Assembly: GCA_002737665.1 (NCBI GenBank)
Contig: NSIF01000021.1
Coordinates: forward strand, 1 to 33,173
Source of the DNA: Flavobacteriales bacterium
GTDB lineage: Bacteria > Bacteroidota > Bacteroidia > Palsa-965
Direction: 5' to 3'
DNA length: 33,173 nt
The position numbers and the translations under genes were made by a program. Shown here piece by piece: positions 3,495-14,312 of the stretch. The notes under the pieces are model-generated. The model made no database searches. It saw only the letters and a program-made list of their open reading frames with translations, and was not told the origin of the DNA. Within the stretch, counting starts at the first letter, position 1. Every line of letters begins with the position of its first letter.

Positions 3495-6400
3495 ATGATG
3501 CAATTAATTCAATTAAAACGACATTTTCTACTTATTAGTATATTTCTTTGTTTGATTTTAAATACTTCTGCTCAAAATGCCCGGGAAGTATTGAAATTGG
3601 ATAAAAGAGAAATTCGTTGGTCTGCTCCGGTTAATTCAGCGTTTTCTGATACAGAAAAGAGGAGCTTTCTCAGTTTCGACGGTGTAACTTATGATGCGGA
3701 AAGGGATTTTCTTCCTTTGTTTACTGAAAGCCGAAAACTTCCACTAGGAAGCACATCCGCTACTGCAAAAATTTATAATGCAGTATATACACCACTTGAT
3801 CAAGCATCTTTAATTTCCATTGGACGATCAACCTCGTTTCTTTCAGACCAAGTTAAAATAGAGGTTTCTGTCTTGATTTCTCGTAGAGAACCAATTGCAA
3901 ATGTTTCTATCATTCCTTTGAGAATCAATGCTGTAACAGGTCAGGTTGAAAAACTGCTCAGTTTTGATATTGAAATTCAGTCTAGCGAAAATGCTAACCG
4001 AATAGCACCTCTTAGTCAGTTTGCGTCCAACTCGGTTTTAGCTTCAGGTACTTGGCACCGAATTGGCGTCACTCTCAATGGAGTTTATAAAGTAGATTTT
4101 AACTTTCTTGCCGGTTTAGGGCTCGATATGTCTACGCTTGACCCTGCTACTATTCGTTTGTATGGGAATGGGCATGGCCAGCTTCCTTTTAGCAACTCAG
4201 GAACTCATCAAGATGATTTAAGTGAATACGCCATTGAAGTTCAAGATCAAAATTCAAACGGAATTTTTGATTCCAATGATTTGATGTTGTTTTATGGCAC
4301 AACTCCTAATTCCTGGACTTTTAACTCCGGAGATAATCATTTTCATCACGCTGTTCATAAATATTGCGACACTACCTATTATTTCTTGACTACCGATTTA
4401 GGTCCTGGGAAAAGAATTTTATCTCAAGCTTCCACCATCACTCCTCCCAATCAAATCGTAAACGCTTTCGATGATTACCAGTTTCATGAATATGACAATG
4501 AAAATTTGATTAAATCTGGAAGAGAGTGGTACGGAGAAAAATTCGACATTCTTAATTCCTACAGCTTTGCATTTGTTTTCCCAAATATTGTTGATACGTC
4601 CAACGCTAGTGTAGAGGTTGATTTAATTTCACGTTGCGACATTGCCAACTCATACGCTGTAAACGCACAAACAACATCGGGAGTGTTGTCAACAGGATTT
4701 ATAAGTTCAGCTTGTTATTATTGCACTTACGCAGCATCAGGAAACACAAACATTTCTTTTCATCCAACGAATTCACTTATCAATGTGAGTATAACCAAAC
4801 AAAACGCTACCGCTGTTGGATGGTTAAATTGGATTAGGGTAAATGCACGACGGAAATTAATAATGAATGGCAGTCAAATGAGTTTTCGCGATTCAAGAAC
4901 TGCTGGCTTAGGAAACATTTCGCAATTTACTTTGGACGGCGCTATGCCAAGCTTAAAGGTTTGGGACGTTTCTGATCTTTCCAATGTTGCATTGCAAAGT
5001 ACTGTTTCAGTAAACACAACTTTAGAATGGAAAATACCTACGGACTATGTACATGAATTTATTGCATTCGATGGACTTTCCTTTCAGACTCCCGTAAATT
5101 TTGGTGCTGTTGCAAATCAGAATTTGCATTCCATGCAGGCAGTAGATTTTATTATTGTAACGCACCCTGATTTTCAGACGCAAGCGCAAGAATTAGCAGA
5201 CCTTCATTCGACTTTTGATAGTCTATCTTATTTAATTGTTAATCCTCAACAGATATACAATGAATTCTCTTCGGGAATGCAGGACGTAACAGCAATTCGT
5301 GATTTTGTTCGAATGATTTACTCTCGTGCTTTAAGTCAAACAGATCTTCCAAGGTATCTTCTTTTATATGGTGATGGTTCTTATGATAACAAACATCGAC
5401 TCCCAAGTAATTCTAATTTTATCCCAACTTTTCAAAATTTAAATTCTCTTACTCCAACGGAATCGTATGTATCCGATCAATATTTTACATTACTCGATGA
5501 CGCAGGTGGTTGGGATAACGGTAGTGATGTTGGCGCAATGGACATTGGTGTTGGACGTTTCCCTGTCCGTTCAGGTTATGAAGCACAAGTTATGGTTGAT
5601 AAAGTCAGGCAATATATGACACGCCAAATGCCCGTTTCCAATGTTGCGGTTTGCGCAACTGATCGATGTTCAAATGGCGGGGAGTGGAAAAATTGGATTG
5701 CATTTATTGGTGATGATGAAGATTCTGATATTCACATGAGCCAAGCGAATCAACTTGCAACTTTTGTTGATACCACATATGATAATTTTAATATTGATAA
5801 AATTTATTTAGATGCCTATCAGCAACAACAAACACCAGGTGGAGAAAGATATCCTGATGTTAATGCTGCAATTGATAAACGTCAGGCATTGGGTTCTCTT
5901 ATATTAAATTATACGGGACACGGCGGTGAAGTTGGTTGGGCACATGAACGTATTTTGGAAGTTTCGCAAGTTAATGGATGGACAAATAGTTGTAATATGC
6001 CATTGTTTGTCACTGCAACATGTGAGTTCAGTCGTTTTGACGATCCATTTAGAACATCTGCAGGTGAATACGTATTATTAAATTCAGCCGGCGGAGGAAT
6101 TGGTTTACTTACCACTGTTCGTCTGGTTTACTCAACGCCAAATTTTGTTCTGAATCAAAATTTTTACGAATGTGCTTTTGAAAAGGTGAACGGTGAAATG
6201 CCGCGGATTGGAGATCTGTACCGTATTACTCAAGTCTCTAGCGGGAATAATACCAACAATAGAAATTTTACTTTACTTGGCGACCCAGCGTTGAGACTAA
6301 ATTATCCTATTAATTCTGTAGCTACAACCGAGGTCAATCATGTTGTGATTACAAGTCAGCCAGATACTTTGCGTGCACTAAGTTTTGTTACGATAAAAGG

Positions 6401-7391
6401 TTTTGTGTCAGACTCACTTGGAAACATTCTTCCAAATTTCAACGGAATTCTTTATCCTTCTGTTTTTGATAAAGCAAAAATGATTACAACATTAGCAAAC
6501 GATCCGCCTAATCCAGCTTTTACTTTCCTTTTACAGAAAAGCGTTTTGTATCATGGTAAGGCAAGTGTTGTGAATGGATATTTTGAGTTTTCTTTTGTTG
6601 TTCCTAAGGATATTGCTTACCAATATGGATTGGGTCGATTAAGTTATTTTGCAGATAACGGAATAACAGACGCCAGTGGAAGTTTTGAAAATATTATTAT
6701 TGGCGGCTCTAATCCAAATGCACCTACTGATGTTACCGGTCCGCAATTAAAACTTTATCTCAACGACAGTAATTTTGTTTTCGGAGGAATTACAAACAAT
6801 AGCCCGAAACTTTTTGCAGTTGTTCTCGATTCAAACGGTGTGAATACGGTTGGAAATGGAATCGGTCACGATGTGGTTGCAATTCTTGATGACGAAACTG
6901 CGAATGCAATAGTTTTAAATGATTATTATCAATCTGATATAAACAGTTACCAAAGCGGGAAAATTATTTATCCTTTCAGTTCTTTGGAACAAGGTAAACA
7001 CACACTGAGTTTGAAGGTATGGGATGTTTATAACAACTCGACTACAGTAAAAACTGAATTTACAGTAACAAATCCTGAAGTGCTTACATTGAATCACGTT
7101 CTTAATTATCCAAACCCATTTACGACACATACGTCATTTTATATGGAGTATAACCAATGCTGTGTTGATTACGATATCATGATTCAAGTGTTTACGGTTT
7201 CAGGGAAATTGGTAAAAACTATCAATGAACACGTCGCTTCAGAAGGGTTCCGTTCGGAGGCAATTGATTGGGATGGAAAAGATGATTATGGAGATTTTCT
7301 TGGTCGTGGGGTTTATATTTATCATGTAGTGGCTCGTACTTCTGATGGTAAAACAGCTGATAAATTCGAAAAACTTGTAATTCTTAAATAG
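3495..7391 (+). CDS. porU: Type IX secretion system sortase PorU (C25 gingipain-like peptidase)
   Basis: 1298 aa; N-terminal propeptide-like region, C25 catalytic His/Cys contexts NYTGHGGEVGWAHE and FVTATCEFSRFDDP, C-terminal LNYPNPFTTHTSF...GRGVYIYHVVARTSDGK domain; followed by porV. Confidence 0.93.
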   Translation: MMQLIQLKRHFLLISIFLCLILNTSAQNAREVLKLDKREIRWSAPVNSAFSDTEKRSFLSFDGVTYDAERDFLPLFTESRKLPLGSTSATAKIYNAVYTPLDQASLISIGRSTSFLSDQVKIEVSVLISRREPIANVSIIPLRINAVTGQVEKLLSFDIEIQSSENANRIAPLSQFASNSVLASGTWHRIGVTLNGVYKVDFNFLAGLGLDMSTLDPATIRLYGNGHGQLPFSNSGTHQDDLSEYAIEVQDQNSNGIFDSNDLMLFYGTTPNSWTFNSGDNHFHHAVHKYCDTTYYFLTTDLGPGKRILSQASTITPPNQIVNAFDDYQFHEYDNENLIKSGREWYGEKFDILNSYSFAFVFPNIVDTSNASVEVDLISRCDIANSYAVNAQTTSGVLSTGFISSACYYCTYAASGNTNISFHPTNSLINVSITKQNATAVGWLNWIRVNARRKLIMNGSQMSFRDSRTAGLGNISQFTLDGAMPSLKVWDVSDLSNVALQSTVSVNTTLEWKIPTDYVHEFIAFDGLSFQTPVNFGAVANQNLHSMQAVDFIIVTHPDFQTQAQELADLHSTFDSLSYLIVNPQQIYNEFSSGMQDVTAIRDFVRMIYSRALSQTDLPRYLLLYGDGSYDNKHRLPSNSNFIPTFQNLNSLTPTESYVSDQYFTLLDDAGGWDNGSDVGAMDIGVGRFPVRSGYEAQVMVDKVRQYMTRQMPVSNVAVCATDRCSNGGEWKNWIAFIGDDEDSDIHMSQANQLATFVDTTYDNFNIDKIYLDAYQQQQTPGGERYPDVNAAIDKRQALGSLILNYTGHGGEVGWAHERILEVSQVNGWTNSCNMPLFVTATCEFSRFDDPFRTSAGEYVLLNSAGGGIGLLTTVRLVYSTPNFVLNQNFYECAFEKVNGEMPRIGDLYRITQVSSGNNTNNRNFTLLGDPALRLNYPINSVATTEVNHVVITSQPDTLRALSFVTIKGFVSDSLGNILPNFNGILYPSVFDKAKMITTLANDPPNPAFTFLLQKSVLYHGKASVVNGYFEFSFVVPKDIAYQYGLGRLSYFADNGITDASGSFENIIIGGSNPNAPTDVTGPQLKLYLNDSNFVFGGITNNSPKLFAVVLDSNGVNTVGNGIGHDVVAILDDETANAIVLNDYYQSDINSYQSGKIIYPFSSLEQGKHTLSLKVWDVYNNSTTVKTEFTVTNPEVLTLNHVLNYPNPFTTHTSFYMEYNQCCVDYDIMIQVFTVSGKLVKTINEHVASEGFRSEAIDWDGKDDYGDFLGRGVYIYHVVARTSDGKTADKFEKLVILK

Positions 7392-7416
7392 GTATTAAAC
7401 TATCGTCTTATTTTTT

Positions 7417-7424
7417 TAATTTTG
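7417..7424 (+). promoter_or_regulatory. Candidate -7 element TAATTTTG upstream of porV
   Basis: Exact TAnnTTTG in the 51-nt porU-porV gap, 18 nt before ATG 7443. Confidence 0.5.
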
Positions 7425-7442
7425 TTTCTTAATATTGCGCAT

Positions 7443-8711
7443 ATGAATAAAAAAGTGATCAGAATGGTAATTGGTGGTGGATTTATTGCCACATTTTTCA
7501 TTTCAATTCAAGTTAACGCTCAGGTGACAACAGCTCAGGTAAATCAATTTTTGAGTCAGATTAATACCATTACAACAGCTGTTCCTTTTTTAATGATCAC
7601 ACCTGATTCTCGAGCTGCAGGCATGGGTGAAACTGGCGTTGCTACTACTCCTGATGTTAATTCTGTCCATTGGAATGCAGCAAAGCTTCCCTTTTCTGAT
7701 AAAAAGATGGGACTTGGTATTTCCTATGCACCTTGGTTACGCGCCTTAGTTCCGGATATTAATTTAGCGTATGTTTCTTTTTATTCTAAATTAAAAGATA
7801 AAAATTCAGCTGTAGCAGGGTCTATGCGGTATTTTTCAATGGGAAATATCACATTTACCGATAACGTTGGAAACACAATTGGACAGTTTCGTCCAAATGA
7901 ATTTGCATTTGATGGAACTTATTCGCGGAAGTTAGGAAGTAAATTTTCTGCAGCAATGACAGCGCGGTTGATTCGTTCTAATCTAACCAATGGAATCACT
8001 GTTGCCGGACAAGATACAAAAGCAGGTTCTGCTTTTGCTGTAGATTTATCTGGTTATTATAACAACAAAAAAATTAAAATTGATGGTAAGCCGGGCACTT
8101 TAATGTTTGGATTGGTGATTTCCAATATTGGGTCTAAAATATCTTACAGCACTTCCGTTAATCGTGATTTTATTCCTATGAATCTCAGACTTGGATCTGG
8201 GATTGTGATTGATGCTGATGCCTATAACCAGATTGGGTTCCAATTGGAATTTACTAAATTACTAGTTCCTACTCCGCCACAATATTCAATTGATGCAAAT
8301 GGCAGCCCCAACATAGATCCTAATACTGGACAGTATGTTATTCTTGCTGGTAGAGATCCAAATGTTTCTGTGCCGCAAGCAATTTTTCAGTCATTTTACG
8401 ATGCCCCAGGTGGTTTTAAAGAAGAGTTGCGCGAAATAAATATTTGTACTGGTTTAGAATATTGGTACAACCAGATTTTTGCAGTTCGCGCGGGATATTT
8501 TTACGAGGCAGCTACAAAGGGAAATAGACAATTTCTAACGATTGGTGCTGGTTTGAAATACAATGTGTTTGGTTTGGATTTTGCTTACCTGATCCCTACA
8601 AATGGCCAACGCAGCCCATTACAAAATACACTTCGCTTTACGTTAATTTTTGACTTTGATGCTTTTAATAATCTAGGTAAGGACGCAGGGGCTAACGAAG
8701 GAGGCAAATAA
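7443..8711 (+). CDS. porV: Type IX secretion system outer membrane protein PorV (LptO)
   Basis: Signal peptide; AVPFLMITPDSRAAGMGETGVATTPDVNSVHWNAAKL is the PorV signature; follows porU. Start placed at ATG 7443 (MNKKVIRM) rather than the extended start at 7422, which overlaps the -7 motif. Confidence 0.93.
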   Translation: MNKKVIRMVIGGGFIATFFISIQVNAQVTTAQVNQFLSQINTITTAVPFLMITPDSRAAGMGETGVATTPDVNSVHWNAAKLPFSDKKMGLGISYAPWLRALVPDINLAYVSFYSKLKDKNSAVAGSMRYFSMGNITFTDNVGNTIGQFRPNEFAFDGTYSRKLGSKFSAAMTARLIRSNLTNGITVAGQDTKAGSAFAVDLSGYYNNKKIKIDGKPGTLMFGLVISNIGSKISYSTSVNRDFIPMNLRLGSGIVIDADAYNQIGFQLEFTKLLVPTPPQYSIDANGSPNIDPNTGQYVILAGRDPNVSVPQAIFQSFYDAPGGFKEELREINICTGLEYWYNQIFAVRAGYFYEAATKGNRQFLTIGAGLKYNVFGLDFAYLIPTNGQRSPLQNTLRFTLIFDFDAFNNLGKDAGANEGGK

Positions 8712-8725
8712 TTTCATTGCTGTTA

Positions 8726-8733
8726 TAAATTTG
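8726..8733 (+). promoter_or_regulatory. Candidate -7 element TAAATTTG upstream of ispF
   Basis: Exact TAnnTTTG in the porV-ispF gap. Confidence 0.45.
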
Positions 8734-8787
8734 CAGTACTATTTTTATAATCGGTTGAATGTATTACGATTTTGTAAAAAATAAATA

Positions 8788-9270
8788 ATGGCCCCCAATT
8801 TTAGAGTAGGTTTAGGTTTTGATGTTCATCAACTTGTAAAGGGGAGGGAACTTTGGCTTGGCGGAGTACGCATTGAGCATGAATTTGGATGTGATGGGCA
8901 TTCAGACGCTGACGTACTCTTACATGCAATTTGTGATGCTCTTTTAGGAGCGGGCGGAATGCGCGATATTGGGTTTCATTTTCCAAATACGGAAGATGCG
9001 TATAAAAATATTGACAGTAAAATTTTGTTAGAAAAAGTTGTTAAACTACTTGTGGAAAAAGCTTGGAAGGTTGGCAATATTGACGCAACACTTGCAATGG
9101 AACGTCCTAAAATAAATGCGCATGTGCCAATGATGATCAGCACGATATCAAAAATTCTTCAGGTTGAAGAAAGTTGCATTTCTATTAAAGCAACAACAAA
9201 TGAAAAGTTGGGTTATGTGGGAAAAGAAGAAGGTGTTAATGCTTGGGCGGTTGCGCTCATCTACAAATAA
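8788..9270 (+). CDS. ispF: 2-C-methyl-D-erythritol 2,4-cyclodiphosphate synthase
   Basis: 160 aa; RVGLGFDVHQLVKGRELWLGGVRIEHEFGCDGHSDADVLLHAICDALLGA, KATTNEKLGYVGKEEGVNAWAVALI. Confidence 0.97.
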   Translation: MAPNFRVGLGFDVHQLVKGRELWLGGVRIEHEFGCDGHSDADVLLHAICDALLGAGGMRDIGFHFPNTEDAYKNIDSKILLEKVVKLLVEKAWKVGNIDATLAMERPKINAHVPMMISTISKILQVEESCISIKATTNEKLGYVGKEEGVNAWAVALIYK

Positions 9271-9305: not shown

Positions 9306-9986
9306 CTAATTAATTGAAATTCCAAATTCGAGTCCAATGATGTAAAGTGTTTGAGGGTCGCTACGATTCCATTCTTTTTGATAAAGAAAATAAGTTCCCA
9401 AAGTCATTTTATTATTTATGCTATAGTTTGATCCAATTAAAAAACGGGAGCGGTCAAAACCATTGCCCCATGGTAAACGAGGGTTTTGTAATTGCCATCG
9501 TAACTCTGCACCGATGTATGGCGAAATTCGATCACTAAACTTATATTCAATCTTAAAAAGATTGCGAAGATAAATTTCTGGCACATTGGCAAGATCACTA
9601 TCGTATCCTAAACTTCTCCACTCACTTTGTAAGCGCAGTCGGTACCCTAACGACCATTTTTTTGGTTTTATTTTGAATGCAAAATCGGTGTAAAGTCGGT
9701 TTCTTATTCCATACGAGCCATCGCCTTTTTGCTTATCAATGAATCGGTAAACAGTTGATACTTTTAAAAAATTAGTGACTTTATAGGTACAGCCCAGATT
9801 GGTATAAACTAAATTAAAATTACTCAGGTTGTCTTTTAATCGGAGTTCCTGATCAAGATTTAAAGCAAATTTGTCGCCAAGGCCTTTATTGAAACTAAAA
9901 GTCATCCATGAACCGAGGTCTTCTGTTTGTGAAAAAGTTGGGACGAAGGAGATACTAAATATAAAAAAAAGAATATATTTTTTCAT
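9306..9986 (-). CDS. DUF2490-type outer membrane beta-barrel protein
   Basis: Signal peptide, WMTFSFNKGLGDKFALNLDQELRLKDN..., alternating beta-strand pattern ending LYIIGLEFGISIN; 2-nt gap after the DUF4956 gene. Confidence 0.75.
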   Translation of the reverse strand: MKKYILFFIFSISFVPTFSQTEDLGSWMTFSFNKGLGDKFALNLDQELRLKDNLSNFNLVYTNLGCTYKVTNFLKVSTVYRFIDKQKGDGSYGIRNRLYTDFAFKIKPKKWSLGYRLRLQSEWRSLGYDSDLANVPEIYLRNLFKIEYKFSDRISPYIGAELRWQLQNPRLPWGNGFDRSRFLIGSNYSINNKMTLGTYFLYQKEWNRSDPQTLYIIGLEFGISIN

Positions 9987-9988
9987 AT

Positions 9989-10789
9989 TTAGCCTTGCGA
10001 CTGGTTTTTGTTTTCGTAGTAATAAATTTTTATGGTAGCCGTATCTCGAAGAAAATCTATTTTCCCTATACTTGCTTTATGGACATGCAAGCCAAGTCTT
10101 TTACTTAGGTCCTCCAATAATTCTTTGTGTTTATCCGGTTTTATCAATTCGATATTTTCATATTGGATTGTTTTCACAAATTCAGTTTTGATGACCACAT
10201 TTCCATCAAGGAGGAATGCGGCAACTATAATTATTGCATTGATGATGCAAATTTCTAATAGATTCCCTTTGTTAACGGAGCTCATTAGTCCAAGTGCAAT
10301 TACTGTAAATAAATAGGTCATGTCACGCGCAGAAATATCTTCCGTTCGATAGCGAAGCAATGAAAAAACAGCAAAAAGTCCAAATGCCGCGCCAGTGGAA
10401 AACCCTGATTTAGCGTTTAGTAAATTAGTGATAATAAAAATGGTAATGTTAAACATGAAGAATGTGAAGACATGGTCGCGACGCCTGTAGACGGGATAAT
10501 AGATCATTCGGATCAGCAAAAACATTGAAATTAAATCAATCAACAATCGGAAAAAAAATGCTGGCGTAAATCGTTCTATGGTATAGGTAAAAAATGTGGC
10601 GTCTGTGTTTTCCTCATCTTTTTCTTTTTTATTTTTCTTTTTAGTATTACCTGATTCGTCCGATGAACCGTCACCTGCAGAAATTGAGGTATTGTCATTT
10701 GCTACATTATCTTGCGCGTATAAAGCCGGCGCAGGTGTAAATGTTAATAGCAGTAAGGGCAGTAAAAACTTAAGCAGTGTATGTTTCAT
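9989..10789 (-). CDS. DUF4956 family membrane protein with signal-peptide-like N-terminus and Ser/acidic/Lys-rich linker
   Basis: Hydrophobic N-terminus, linker DNTSISAGDGSSDESGNTKKKNKKEKDEENTD, then several TM segments (FFRLLIDLISMFLLIRMIYYPVYRRRDHVFTFFMFNITIFIITNLL, GAAFGLFAVFSLLRYRTEDISARDMTYLFTVIALGLMSS); adjacent to a VTC-domain gene. Confidence 0.8.
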   Translation of the reverse strand: MKHTLLKFLLPLLLLTFTPAPALYAQDNVANDNTSISAGDGSSDESGNTKKKNKKEKDEENTDATFFTYTIERFTPAFFFRLLIDLISMFLLIRMIYYPVYRRRDHVFTFFMFNITIFIITNLLNAKSGFSTGAAFGLFAVFSLLRYRTEDISARDMTYLFTVIALGLMSSVNKGNLLEICIINAIIIVAAFLLDGNVVIKTEFVKTIQYENIELIKPDKHKELLEDLSKRLGLHVHKASIGKIDFLRDTATIKIYYYENKNQSQG

Positions 10790-11534
10790 CGATTATTTTT
10801 TGAATTGCTAAAATGTTTGGTTTAAAATTATTTTTTTTAATATCTGGTATTAACTTGCTTACTGCGAGACAATACTTACTTGTTCCGCCTTTACGAATAT
10901 GCATTTTTTTTAAGCATTTTACAAATGGCGTTTCATGTACTTTAGCTTGTTTTACTTCTATGATAACAAGTCCGGTAAAATCTGCCTCGGCCTCATTGTT
11001 TTTGACTTCAAGATCTAAATCAATAGTAATCCGCTCTTCTTGCTTATTGTTTACAAGCGTGACACGATTATAATTTACCCATAATTTAGGTTCTATGCTT
11101 TCTGGCGTCATGCCAGCAACTGATTCAAGAAGCTGTCGTGAGTTATCCGTGATGCTGTTTTCCGCATTAGTGTTTTTGACTCGCTTTTTAATAACCCTTC
11201 CTTTATTATTTTTAAACTTTACTTCAAAAAAAGTTAGTTTTGTTTCAACATAACGGCGCAATCGTATCTTGTAACGATTCATTTTTCCGTTATGGTGATT
11301 TTGAAATAGATCAAATTCTGGTGTGTCGTAATAGAGTGTTTCGTATCTGCTCATTCTTGTCCCTTCTACTTCTAGTGCTCTGTAGTCATCGCGCACCATC
11401 TTTAATAATTCAGGTAAAAGAGAAATATTGAAATTGTATTTTCTATCAGTGCGGTCCATTAGCTTAACACGATCCATTTCCTTGAGCGAAATTGGTTCAA
11501 ATGAATTGAGTACCTCTTGGACTTTGTTTTTCAA
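10770..11534 (-). CDS. VTC-domain polyphosphate polymerase
   Basis: 254 aa; MDRTDRKYNF, YETLYYDTPEFDLFQNHHNGKMNRYKIRLRRY, TFFEVKFKNNKGRVIKKR, ERITIDLDL, GLVIIEVKQ, KGGTSKYCLAV: basic tunnel residues and acidic metal ligands typical of the VTC4 catalytic fold. Overlaps DUF4956 by 20 nt. Confidence 0.87.
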   Translation of the reverse strand: MKNKVQEVLNSFEPISLKEMDRVKLMDRTDRKYNFNISLLPELLKMVRDDYRALEVEGTRMSRYETLYYDTPEFDLFQNHHNGKMNRYKIRLRRYVETKLTFFEVKFKNNKGRVIKKRVKNTNAENSITDNSRQLLESVAGMTPESIEPKLWVNYNRVTLVNNKQEERITIDLDLEVKNNEAEADFTGLVIIEVKQAKVHETPFVKCLKKMHIRKGGTSKYCLAVSKLIPDIKKNNFKPNILAIQKIIDETYTA

Positions 11535-11542
11535 GTAAATTG

Positions 11543-12136
11543 CTAATAGGTGTATGTAAACTTAACTTGTTTTAGTAAAATATCTCCTGGCCCCCAAACT
11601 TTTTTTTCTGTTCTTAAACCTTTTGTGTCGTAAAAGTAATTTGATTTTTGTACCAATGTTTTCCCAGCATTGTATTCGATTTCCTCTGTTTTATTCCCTT
11701 TAGAATTGTAAGTAAATGTGGTTTTTTTAATAATTGCTCCTGTCATATCTACTATTACCTCTTCTGTTTTATCCCCAGCAGCATTGTATTTCCAAGTTGT
11801 TTTTTTGTATTTCTTATCGTTTGCTGCGACTTCATTAGGGTCTGTATTTGGCTGCTCTATAATCTCTTCAATTTTTTCTTTGCCAGCGTACTTTATTGTT
11901 TGTTTTTTTTTAATGGTTCCGTTTGGGTTGTATTCAATTTCTGTTGTAGTGTTTCCTGAGCCATCATATGTACTGTAACCAGATTTAAAGGGAATATTTG
12001 CTTTGCCGTCTATGTAAAGCGTAGTGTTTTCTGTTTTGCTTTTTACTTTTAATTCCTTCAACTGTTTTTTGGATTGTGCAAGGAGTGGTACTGCAAAAAC
12101 GGAGAAAATAATTAAAAAAAATAAAATGCGTTTCAT
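11543..12136 (-). CDS. Exported YD/RHS-like repeat protein
   Basis: Signal peptide MKRILFFLIIFSVFAVPLLAQ, then repeats of about 26 aa: KKTTWKYNAAGDKTEEVIVDMTGAII / KKTTFTYNSKGNKTEEIEYNAGKTLV / QKSNYFYDTKGLRTEKKVWGPGDILL. Confidence 0.7.
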   Translation of the reverse strand: MKRILFFLIIFSVFAVPLLAQSKKQLKELKVKSKTENTTLYIDGKANIPFKSGYSTYDGSGNTTTEIEYNPNGTIKKKQTIKYAGKEKIEEIIEQPNTDPNEVAANDKKYKKTTWKYNAAGDKTEEVIVDMTGAIIKKTTFTYNSKGNKTEEIEYNAGKTLVQKSNYFYDTKGLRTEKKVWGPGDILLKQVKFTYTY

Positions 12137-12141
12137 AGAAA

Positions 12142-12567
12142 TTATTTATTGATTCTTAAATTACTTAATGTAGTAGCTTGTTTTCTATCGGTAATTTCAA
12201 TGTCAGTTGAAATTGCATTTTTACCTGATGGAAAGTTTACTAAATCACAAGCTTCATTGGAATACACATAAACCCTGTATTTGCCTTTACGGAGATAATT
12301 GAATTTATAGGTTCCATCTGGCGACGTTTTTACTCTTTCTCCATAGCTTGGGTCGTCACCGTATATTAAGTAAACATCCTCGTCTGGTGCATAAAATGGA
12401 ATAAATCCAGAGCTGGAATCAAGGTAGTTGCATCCAGGGTCTGTAAAGTTTCCGTAAGCATAAACTCTCCCAGAAATGGATGCCTGTCCTCCTGGACCAG
12501 GACCGTTTTTGCAGGATGAAAAGAACGTTATTGAAAAAACGATTAGAATTATTAAAATGCGAGCCAT
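12142..12567 (-). CDS. Small lipoprotein with carboxypeptidase-regulatory-like (Ig-like) domain
   Basis: Lipobox FFSSC; ASISGRVYAYGNF...SPDGTYKFNYLRKGKYRVYVYS resembles prealbumin-like regulatory domains; 5-nt gap to the next gene. Confidence 0.7.
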   Translation of the reverse strand: MARILIILIVFSITFFSSCKNGPGPGGQASISGRVYAYGNFTDPGCNYLDSSSGFIPFYAPDEDVYLIYGDDPSYGERVKTSPDGTYKFNYLRKGKYRVYVYSNEACDLVNFPSGKNAISTDIEITDRKQATTLSNLRINK

Positions 12568-12633
12568 ATTTATGTAGTTAATAGTCTAAAAATCAGATAA
12601 AAGATAGTTTGACATAAAATCTTTATTATAAAT

Positions 12634-12641
12634 CAAAGTTA
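12634..12641 (-). promoter_or_regulatory. Candidate -7 element TAACTTTG for the lipoprotein-YD-VTC-DUF4956-DUF2490 operon
   Basis: Minus-strand exact TAnnTTTG about 67 nt upstream of ATG 12567. Confidence 0.45.
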
Positions 12642-12717
12642 GTGACCTTTTTGAGATTTAGGATAAACAATTTACTTTAAATATAGTTTTGAATAATGAT
12701 TTGTTAACCTAATAGCG

Positions 12718-12755
12718 ATATTGAATTTTTGATTTTTAAATCAAAAATTCAATAT
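12718..12755. repeat. Perfect 18-bp inverted repeat (AT-rich hairpin) between the CotH gene and the VTC operon
   Basis: atattgaatttttgattt (12718-12735) / tt / aaatcaaaaattcaatat (12738-12755). Confidence 0.85.
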
Positions 12756-12800
12756 TACTTGAACTAAAAAAACACATCAACTTTCGGGAAGAACAACAAT

Positions 12801-14312
12801 TTAATGAATGACAGCAATAGGAGTTCTTTTATTTTCTCCATTACCGTTAGTCACCGACAAAAGATAAATTCCATTTGCCATTCTCTCTGTTGCAATCAAA
12901 TAATTATTGTTGTCGAAGTTTAAAATATTCTCTGTAGAAATTACATTACCCGTTACGTCGTAAATTTGAAGAAAACAATCACCCAAATTCCAATTCTGTG
13001 GAAGTGAAATTGTTACTATGGTAGCAGAAGGGTTAGGGAAAACAGAAAGTTGTGACACAGTAGTCATTGTTTCACTGGTTCCCAACCAACAACCAAATGG
13101 TGCAAGTTGTGTAGTAAGACTTGCATTTCTTGCCATAATAAAAGTTTTAATACCAGGTGTATTATTTACATTCATTATGATGTTGTTTTCAAATTGCGCG
13201 TTTGTAAAAAATTTATTCGGATCTGCATAAACATCCGGTCGAATTAAATTCACTAAGCTATCAATTTTTGAATCTAAATTAGCATTTGTAAAGTCAGCCG
13301 ACATAGCACAGAGTGACGAAATGTACATACTTCGATAGGTTGCATCAGCTAACATTTTTTGTCCAAGAGGTCGGTTACTCGCTTGGCCTAAGTAATCATA
13401 ATTAAGATTTTGTATTTGTGGGATACTCATCGACATATTAAAATTACCAAACGCTTCGTTCACGTCCCAGGCTATCCAATGGAATTTAAAATAAGTGGAA
13501 TCGTTATAAGCGTAATAATTATGTCCGCTCCCAGCATAGGAATCTAGGTTTGCAAAAAGATTTTGCGCTGCCATGTAATTAAGAAAACTCCAGGAGTCTA
13601 ACACCGTTTCCAATGTGTCAAAATAAACAGATGGTACGCTGTTGTTTGCCAAGTTAAGTAGCTGCACTAAATCACTCCAATTAATAACTGTTGAACTTGA
13701 ATTTAATTCGTAGTGCGAGTAGTAAGCACTAGCGGCAGACCCGTACCATTTTGTGTCGCCGCTCGGATCTCCCTTGTAAAGGTTGCCGTCATCATCAGGA
13801 AATCGTTGCTTCAAAAATTTACTATCCACCTCTTCTACTAAATCATAAAGTCCCCAATAAATGTTGTTAAAATAAACACGCGCATAAGTGCAGCGAGGAG
13901 AAAAAACACCGTGACTATTCATAAAATCAAGGGCAATTTTTTCACGCAAAAAACTTGGATCTTTAAATCCATTGTTCAGATTTACTTTTTTTATGCCATC
14001 AAAATCTTGTCCTGGAACATAATAGTTGAAATCAAGTTTCATGGATTTTTTTACACTTGGATTATTAAACGACGAATTCCCTTTGAATTTGACACCAATT
14101 GTCGGCATTGTACGACCATCAAAAATCACATCACAGCTCATGTAGGTGTCGTTAACATGGGTGTTTAGTAGTGAATCGTAGTAAGAAGGTTGAGAAAAAT
14201 TTAGATAGATATCATGTATGAAATTGGCACTCCAAATACTGTCGCCATCAGCGGCATTTGATTTTCCAAAAAGAGATATTGATAGAAAAACAACAAAAAG
14301 TAATTTTTTCAT
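12801..14312 (-). CDS. CotH family protein kinase-like protein with C-terminal T9SS type A sorting domain
   Basis: Signal peptide; GVKFKGNSSFNNPSVKKSMKLDFN, LNNGFKDPSFLREKIALDFM, YWGLYDLVEEVDSKFLKQRF, GNLYKGDPSG, WIAWDVNEAFGNF (CotH motifs); C-terminus LSVFPNPSATIVTISLP...IYDVTGNVI...MANGIYLLSV (type A sorting domain). Confidence 0.88.
   Translation of the reverse strand: MKKLLFVVFLSISLFGKSNAADGDSIWSANFIHDIYLNFSQPSYYDSLLNTHVNDTYMSCDVIFDGRTMPTIGVKFKGNSSFNNPSVKKSMKLDFNYYVPGQDFDGIKKVNLNNGFKDPSFLREKIALDFMNSHGVFSPRCTYARVYFNNIYWGLYDLVEEVDSKFLKQRFPDDDGNLYKGDPSGDTKWYGSAASAYYSHYELNSSSTVINWSDLVQLLNLANNSVPSVYFDTLETVLDSWSFLNYMAAQNLFANLDSYAGSGHNYYAYNDSTYFKFHWIAWDVNEAFGNFNMSMSIPQIQNLNYDYLGQASNRPLGQKMLADATYRSMYISSLCAMSADFTNANLDSKIDSLVNLIRPDVYADPNKFFTNAQFENNIIMNVNNTPGIKTFIMARNASLTTQLAPFGCWLGTSETMTTVSQLSVFPNPSATIVTISLPQNWNLGDCFLQIYDVTGNVISTENILNFDNNNYLIATERMANGIYLLSVTNGNGENKRTPIAVIH

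Follow-up and report, generated by a model that had tools for sequence, protein, structure and literature searches.

In bacteria, polyphosphate (polyP) is normally credited to the PPK enzymes and kept intracellular; the eukaryotic VTC complex (Vtc4/Vtc3/Vtc1; PDB entries 3g3q, 8i6v, and 7ytj) couples its polymerase to a multi-helix membrane part. A functionally unsolved gene set with a VTC-type enzyme is known from Gram-positive bacteria, in which cotH, a poly-phosphate polymerase (PPP) gene, and a DUF4956 gene are accessory to the pel clusters (PMC7112168). Specifically, the contiguous cotH-PPP-DUF4956-DUF4832 genes of Streptococcus intermedius (SIR_1594-1591) code, among others, for a secreted CotH, a VTC-type polymerase, and an MgtC/ACT DUF4956 protein; deletion of the DUF4956 or the CotH gene altered the amount of Pel and aggregation, and CotH-polymerase-DUF4956 synteny outside Pel loci was not found by the authors (PMC12345266, 2025). 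The two papers confirm the recurrence of CotH, VTC, and DUF4956 in other phyla, which the first-pass annotation of the DNA analysed here had put forward. The window, which is the whole stretch of 33,173 nucleotides from a Flavobacteriales bacterium (GCA_002737665.1, contig NSIF01000021.1), holds a six-gene block, CotH-lipoprotein-YD-VTC-DUF4956-DUF2490, that is a Gram-negative, type IX secretion system (T9SS)-coupled variant of this gene set. Compared with the Pel accessory genes, the block lacks Pel genes, resides in a Gram-negative envelope, and adds the lipoprotein, the YD protein, DUF2490, and T9SS targeting of CotH. The window is one contig of a 1.65-Mb assembly, a metagenome-assembled genome (MAG) that is 66.6% complete (G000), and its placement in the Bacteroidota follows from PorU, PorV, the T9SS tail, and the names of its relatives.

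We read the block as an envelope-spanning polyP module, with a rough probability of 0.45, in which the VTC protein would synthesise the polymer, DUF4956 would hand it over, the exported proteins would carry it outward, and CotH would act at the surface. Five of the genes are tightly packed open reading frames on the minus strand (12567-9306), with intergenic gaps of 5, 8, -20, and 2 nt, exactly the compact operon that had been described at first pass, and cotH lies upstream on the same strand. The gene identities proposed there stand for CotH with its T9SS domain, VTC, DUF4956, and DUF2490 by Pfam and NCBIfam models (Pfam scores of 205 bits for CotH, 48.5 for Por_Secre_tail, 101 for VTC, 178 for DUF4956, and 88 for DUF2490, all above the cut-off), whereas models support the YD assignment only weakly, and a family alignment backs it.

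In a survey of 248 Bacteroidota genomes, VTC genes lie almost always directly upstream of a DUF4956 gene, and two subfamilies can be told apart: type A, that of the window, with DUF4956 scores of 150-205 bits, and type B, with about 40-74 bits. At 52 type A loci, VTC is immediately upstream in 45, and DUF2490 (36), the lipoprotein (24), CotH (21), and YD (14) follow in frequency; a second set, of 80 named loci, was obtained with a DUF4956 profile, and in the 74 that were counted, some from organisms also present in the first set, the figures are 69 for VTC directly upstream, 56 for DUF2490, 30 for the lipoprotein, 35 for CotH, and 29 for YD. Low-scoring CotH matches are probably T9SS tails, and a kinase-domain model was used for the counts instead. 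VTC is also present at 18 of the 19 type B loci, none of which has DUF2490, the lipoprotein, or YD nearby on the same strand. The linkage of CotH and DUF2490 has p < 1e-20 even if a generous chance of 2% per locus is assumed, which predicts about one locus. Moreover, strong matches to the lipoprotein occur in 28 of 35 relatives with a type A DUF4956 and in 0 of 24 without it (Fisher p ~1e-10), and these 59 genomes are drawn largely from different families, so that their non-independence is reduced but not removed. The full order, CotH-lipoprotein-YD-VTC-DUF4956-DUF2490, is found again in further families and orders (L149, L150, L154, L159, L164, L171, L174, and L176), and the five-gene run is found in five of the six other members of the genus, the sixth (G252) being without VTC and DUF4956. 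The VTC-DUF4956-DUF2490-CotH linkage proposed from this single locus is therefore kept in relatives, the six-gene block is a conserved module, and its arrangement is far beyond chance. Its core is VTC-DUF4956(-DUF2490), while YD and the lipoprotein are frequent but not universal. That only VTC and DUF4956 form a unit, and that CotH, the lipoprotein, YD, and DUF2490 are neighbours without a shared function, is largely refuted and most improbable: YD and CotH are indeed absent from many loci, and cotH has its own hairpin and spacer in the window, but the restriction of the lipoprotein to module genomes across mostly different families, the linkage statistics, and the same gene order in distinct families and orders all argue against mere proximity. 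One further locus, L201 (DUF4956-DUF2490-CotH of Bacteroidota type, in a MAG titled Bifidobacterium breve), is probably mis-binned and was excluded from the cross-phylum evidence.

The VTC gene (10770..11534, minus strand, TTG start; PF09359 E=8e-29) codes for a predicted cytoplasmic protein of 254 aa that consists of the tunnel domain only, as neither the Pfam search nor the AlphaFold2 (AF2) model contains an SPX or a transmembrane (TM) domain, a difference from the eukaryotic polymerase, which it resembles in fold, catalytic residues, and coupling to a multi-helix membrane part. A PDB search with the single sequence returned noise only, and profiles were required. The AF2 model (predicted local distance difference test, pLDDT, of 95) has 3g3r, 3g3q, and 8i6v as its best Foldseek matches (E ~1e-12), and nearly all top matches are yeast Vtc4, Vtc3, and Vtc2, ahead of other triphosphate-tunnel enzymes. 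At the profile level, type A aligns with Vtc2 (E=4e-4) and Vtc4 (E=2e-3), type B with the whole domain of Vtc4 (E=2e-20), and the two types with each other (E=6e-27). Traced through the type A and type B alignments, Vtc4 K200, R264, R266, K281, K294, R361, R373, E426, and K458 correspond to K32, R91, R93, K106, K116, R157, R168, E193, and K220 of the window protein, K200, K281, K294, R361, R373, and K458 being active-site positions of the Vtc4 structure. Each of the nine mapped residues is invariant or conserved to at least 90%, both among 30 and among 65 homologues, and R264, R266, and E426 are the positions altered in catalytically impaired Vtc4 (PMC9911596). The full Vtc4 catalytic set, the loss of which would have spoken against the first-pass proposal, is thus present on a Vtc4-like fold, which backs polyP synthesis by VTC well at the sequence level and makes the polyP reading plausible for the VTC-DUF4956 core. 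PPK1 is encoded in 45 of the 59 relatives, including every near-complete member of the genus; since it coexists with the module, VTC is probably a dedicated, not the sole, polyP enzyme, and no simple replacement of PPK1.

The triphosphate tunnel metalloenzyme (TTM) fold is also used by hydrolases and cyclases, and TTM hydrolases carry an ExExK signature. A VTC-fold enzyme could therefore use triphosphate for an end other than long polyP, in a module that phosphorylates or tunes an exopolysaccharide or a spore or biofilm coat; such a surface-glycan accessory would agree with the position of cotH-PPP-DUF4956 beside pel clusters (PMC7112168) and with the Pel and aggregation changes of the S. intermedius deletions (PMC12345266). 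We consider this unlikely, as the type A VTC proteins lack ExExK and keep the Vtc4 residue set, PelG has no match in the 66.6% complete genome G000 or in any type A-module genome of the 248-genome survey, and the neighbourhoods examined contain no recurrent glycosyltransferase. Likewise, VTC, DUF4956, and CotH are found without PelG in the control genomes, Corynebacterium glutamicum and Methanosarcina acetivorans, although this is co-presence only. The CotH-VTC-DUF4956 trio, frequent here in the absence of Pel, is separable from the Pel polysaccharide, and its part in streptococcal aggregation therefore needs re-reading.

The DUF4956 inner-membrane protein (9989..10789, minus strand; PF16316 E=1.5e-52) has a signal-like N-terminus, a charged linker predicted to be periplasmic, about five helices, a conserved R146-x-R148, and a C-terminal ACT-like domain, and its AF2 model combines a helical core with a C-terminal alpha/beta domain that resembles ACT domains. 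Foldseek retrieved no solved homologue of the whole protein (best E=0.18), the C-terminal domain alone resembling ACT domains such as IlvN. The coupling to VTC is well supported: DUF4956 genes overlap the VTC gene in most loci, and at one locus (L211) VTC and DUF4956 form a single in-frame polypeptide, likened to the polymerase-then-TM layout of Vtc4, although this is one MAG locus truncated by the contig start, where an assembly error is possible. The overlaps and this natural fusion point to DUF4956 as a dedicated membrane partner of VTC. Unusually long VTC or DUF4956 frames in two genomes were rejected as fusions: in G266, the VTC and DUF4956 matches fall in separate frames, of 322 and 516 codons, respectively, and in G135, DUF4956 occupies its own frame of 229 codons. 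The L211 polypeptide is the only in-frame fusion. The first-pass view of DUF4956 as a counterpart of Vtc1 survives as regards a membrane partner of VTC, but no Vtc1-like domain or similarity was detected, the protein being MgtC-like instead, and the analogy is functional at best. In the genus and close relatives, the signal-like N-terminus is followed by an acidic/Ser/Lys-rich linker, DESGNTKKKNKKEKDEENTD (window 10560-10730, residues ~23-75), that resembles the PASK-type polyP-binding segments known from yeast.

By profile comparison, DUF4956 is distantly MgtC-like. Specifically, the alignment of type B with MgtC spans its full length (hhalign 96.7%, E=3e-10; controls with reversed sequences <1%), Pfam MgtC gives weak matches to 14 of 17 members, and both families share a helical membrane core followed by a C-terminal ACT-like domain. 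Type A aligns with type B (94.6%, E=7e-8), and its direct profile comparison with MgtC was negative, so the window protein is linked to MgtC by way of type B only. ATP synthase and phosphate signalling are under MgtC control, and the block might accordingly serve phosphate homeostasis without export, with polyP retained in the cytoplasm or on the inner membrane, an MgtC-like DUF4956 acting as regulator, and the exported proteins answering the same signal. Besides the MgtC alignments, this somewhat unlikely alternative is favoured by DUF4956 genes that lie without VTC beside a purple acid phosphatase: at L078, L079, and L172, the DUF4956 gene precedes those for a conserved protein of 341 aa and a purple-acid-phosphatase-like protein of 480 aa. 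The independent description of SIR_1592 as an MgtC/ACT protein is also in its favour (PMC12345266). Conversely, the pairing of DUF4956 with VTC is near-constant and includes a fusion. The R-x-R motif is fully or almost fully conserved in DUF4956 of type A and type B alike and missing from the MgtC consensus, a direct match of type A to MgtC is lacking, and the genes for the exported proteins belong to the same operon and occur where it occurs, all of which speaks against this alternative.

The export signals of the remaining gene products were assigned by eye. The lipoprotein (12142..12567, minus strand) has its lipobox at Cys19, an invariant Gly-rich stretch after this Cys, and a single SdrD_B/CarboxypepD_reg-like beta-sandwich, and its family alignment shows the invariant pattern C-x4-G-x-GG...YGD...G-x-[FY]-x-F-x-Y-L-x-x-G-x-Y. 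The YD-repeat protein (11543..12136, minus strand; pI ~9.3) is predicted to be exported; TIGR01643 matches it with E=4e-4 and Pfam RHS falls below the cut-off, yet the family is real, since 25 homologues align and share a conserved N-terminal AQSKK motif. DUF2490 (9306..9986, minus strand; PF10677 E=7e-25) is a predicted outer-membrane beta-barrel with a pI of ~9.6. The median pI is 9.2 for YD and 9.5 for DUF2490 proteins, and such a basic charge would be expected of proteins that touch a polyanion.

CotH (12801..14312, minus strand; PF08757 E=2.9e-60) aligns with the Bacillus cereus CotH structure 5jd9 (E=2.7e-19), sharing the WD of the active-site WDxx region, and ends in a T9SS type A sorting domain (PF18962 E=1e-12; TIGR04183 36.8 bits against a cut-off of 23), with PorU and PorV encoded in the same window. 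D296 is invariant in 30 operon-linked CotH proteins, 22 of which have a T9SS tail and 19 of which have a lamin-tail domain. CotH is thus predicted to be a kinase-like, T9SS-secreted protein. G000 holds five CotH genes on contigs C2 and C14, including a tandem pair on C2, and one of the five is linked to the module.

In the envelope-spanning polyP module that we favour, VTC would polymerise polyP from ATP on the cytoplasmic side of the inner membrane, and DUF4956 would anchor the enzyme and take the growing chain, a part played in the yeast VTC complex by its membrane domain. In diderms, the basic YD protein in the periplasm, the lipoprotein at the outer membrane, and the DUF2490 barrel would then carry or display the polyanion toward the surface, where the T9SS-secreted kinase-like CotH may act on the same surface layer. 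Exported polyP, passed on through DUF4956 and the outer-membrane parts, might also be the phosphoryl donor of CotH on the ATP-free surface; this extension, which we regard as very unlikely, would explain why a secreted kinase-like protein is encoded beside a polyP polymerase in both Gram-positives and Gram-negatives.

Several points weigh against an envelope-spanning polyP module. The coexistence of PPK1 also fits a VTC role other than polyP synthesis, and the basic charge of DUF2490 and YD is non-specific evidence. MgtC proteins are regulators and not known channels, and DUF4956 is MgtC-like; to our knowledge, no activity has been measured for any DUF4956-linked VTC enzyme, and the open-access literature that was searched yielded no experiments on whether a prokaryotic VTC-DUF4956 system synthesises polyP. 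Furthermore, type A DUF4956 has no adjacent VTC at L078, L079, and L172, and no change in Pel amount or aggregation was reported for the deletion of SIR_1593, the polymerase homologue in S. intermedius (PMC12345266).

If true, the module would be a second widespread route to polyP in bacteria, in which a VTC-type polymerase, equipped with a membrane protein of its own and with envelope parts, is dedicated to extracytoplasmic polymer, and DUF4956, DUF2490, and an orphan family of lipoproteins would gain a function; the module also raises the question of the phosphate donor of secreted CotH kinases. Adjacent DUF4956 and DUF2490 genes are found in a tractable laboratory species as Bacteroides BT3498-BT3499, which an iron-response table annotates only as DUFs (PMC10434189).

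Other neighbours of VTC-DUF4956 were noted elsewhere. The type B pairs (L081-L100) often have a conserved membrane-anchored protein of 354-360 aa upstream, with no Pfam match, or HlyD-type adaptors downstream. In Thioploca sp. (L193:7095-9863), CotH-VTC-DUF4956 directly precedes a gene for a phosphate-selective porin O/P (PF07396, E=2e-70), a single locus in which the VTC frame is apparently broken by a frameshift in that MAG. The porin O/P and HlyD-type neighbours hint at, but do not prove, that polymer moves through the envelope.

In the window, cotH may be a transcription unit of its own, because it is separated from the lipoprotein gene by a spacer of 233 nt that contains an AT-rich, perfect hairpin and a single TAnnTTTG motif; in relatives this gap is mostly -16 to ~110 nt, so that the two genes are usually close. 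The hairpin, found by folding the intergenic stretch and in its sequence, has a ~17-bp stem (approximately 12710..12755, minus strand) and is a possible terminator after cotH. The Bacteroidota-type -7 motif (12634..12641, minus strand) is a candidate promoter of the five-gene operon, although weak evidence, since TAnnTTTG occurs 37 times across both strands of the whole window. The cotH gene ends at 12801 and has a good ATG with a signal-like N-terminus at 14312, its open frame extending to 14351. Just past the 3' end of the operon lie the genes for the PorU sortase and PorV, and ispF (window 3495-9270); this synteny is retained in most relatives of the genus (L101-L104) and, it seems, in certain further families (e.g., L117 and L164), and the module thus often adjoins T9SS core genes.

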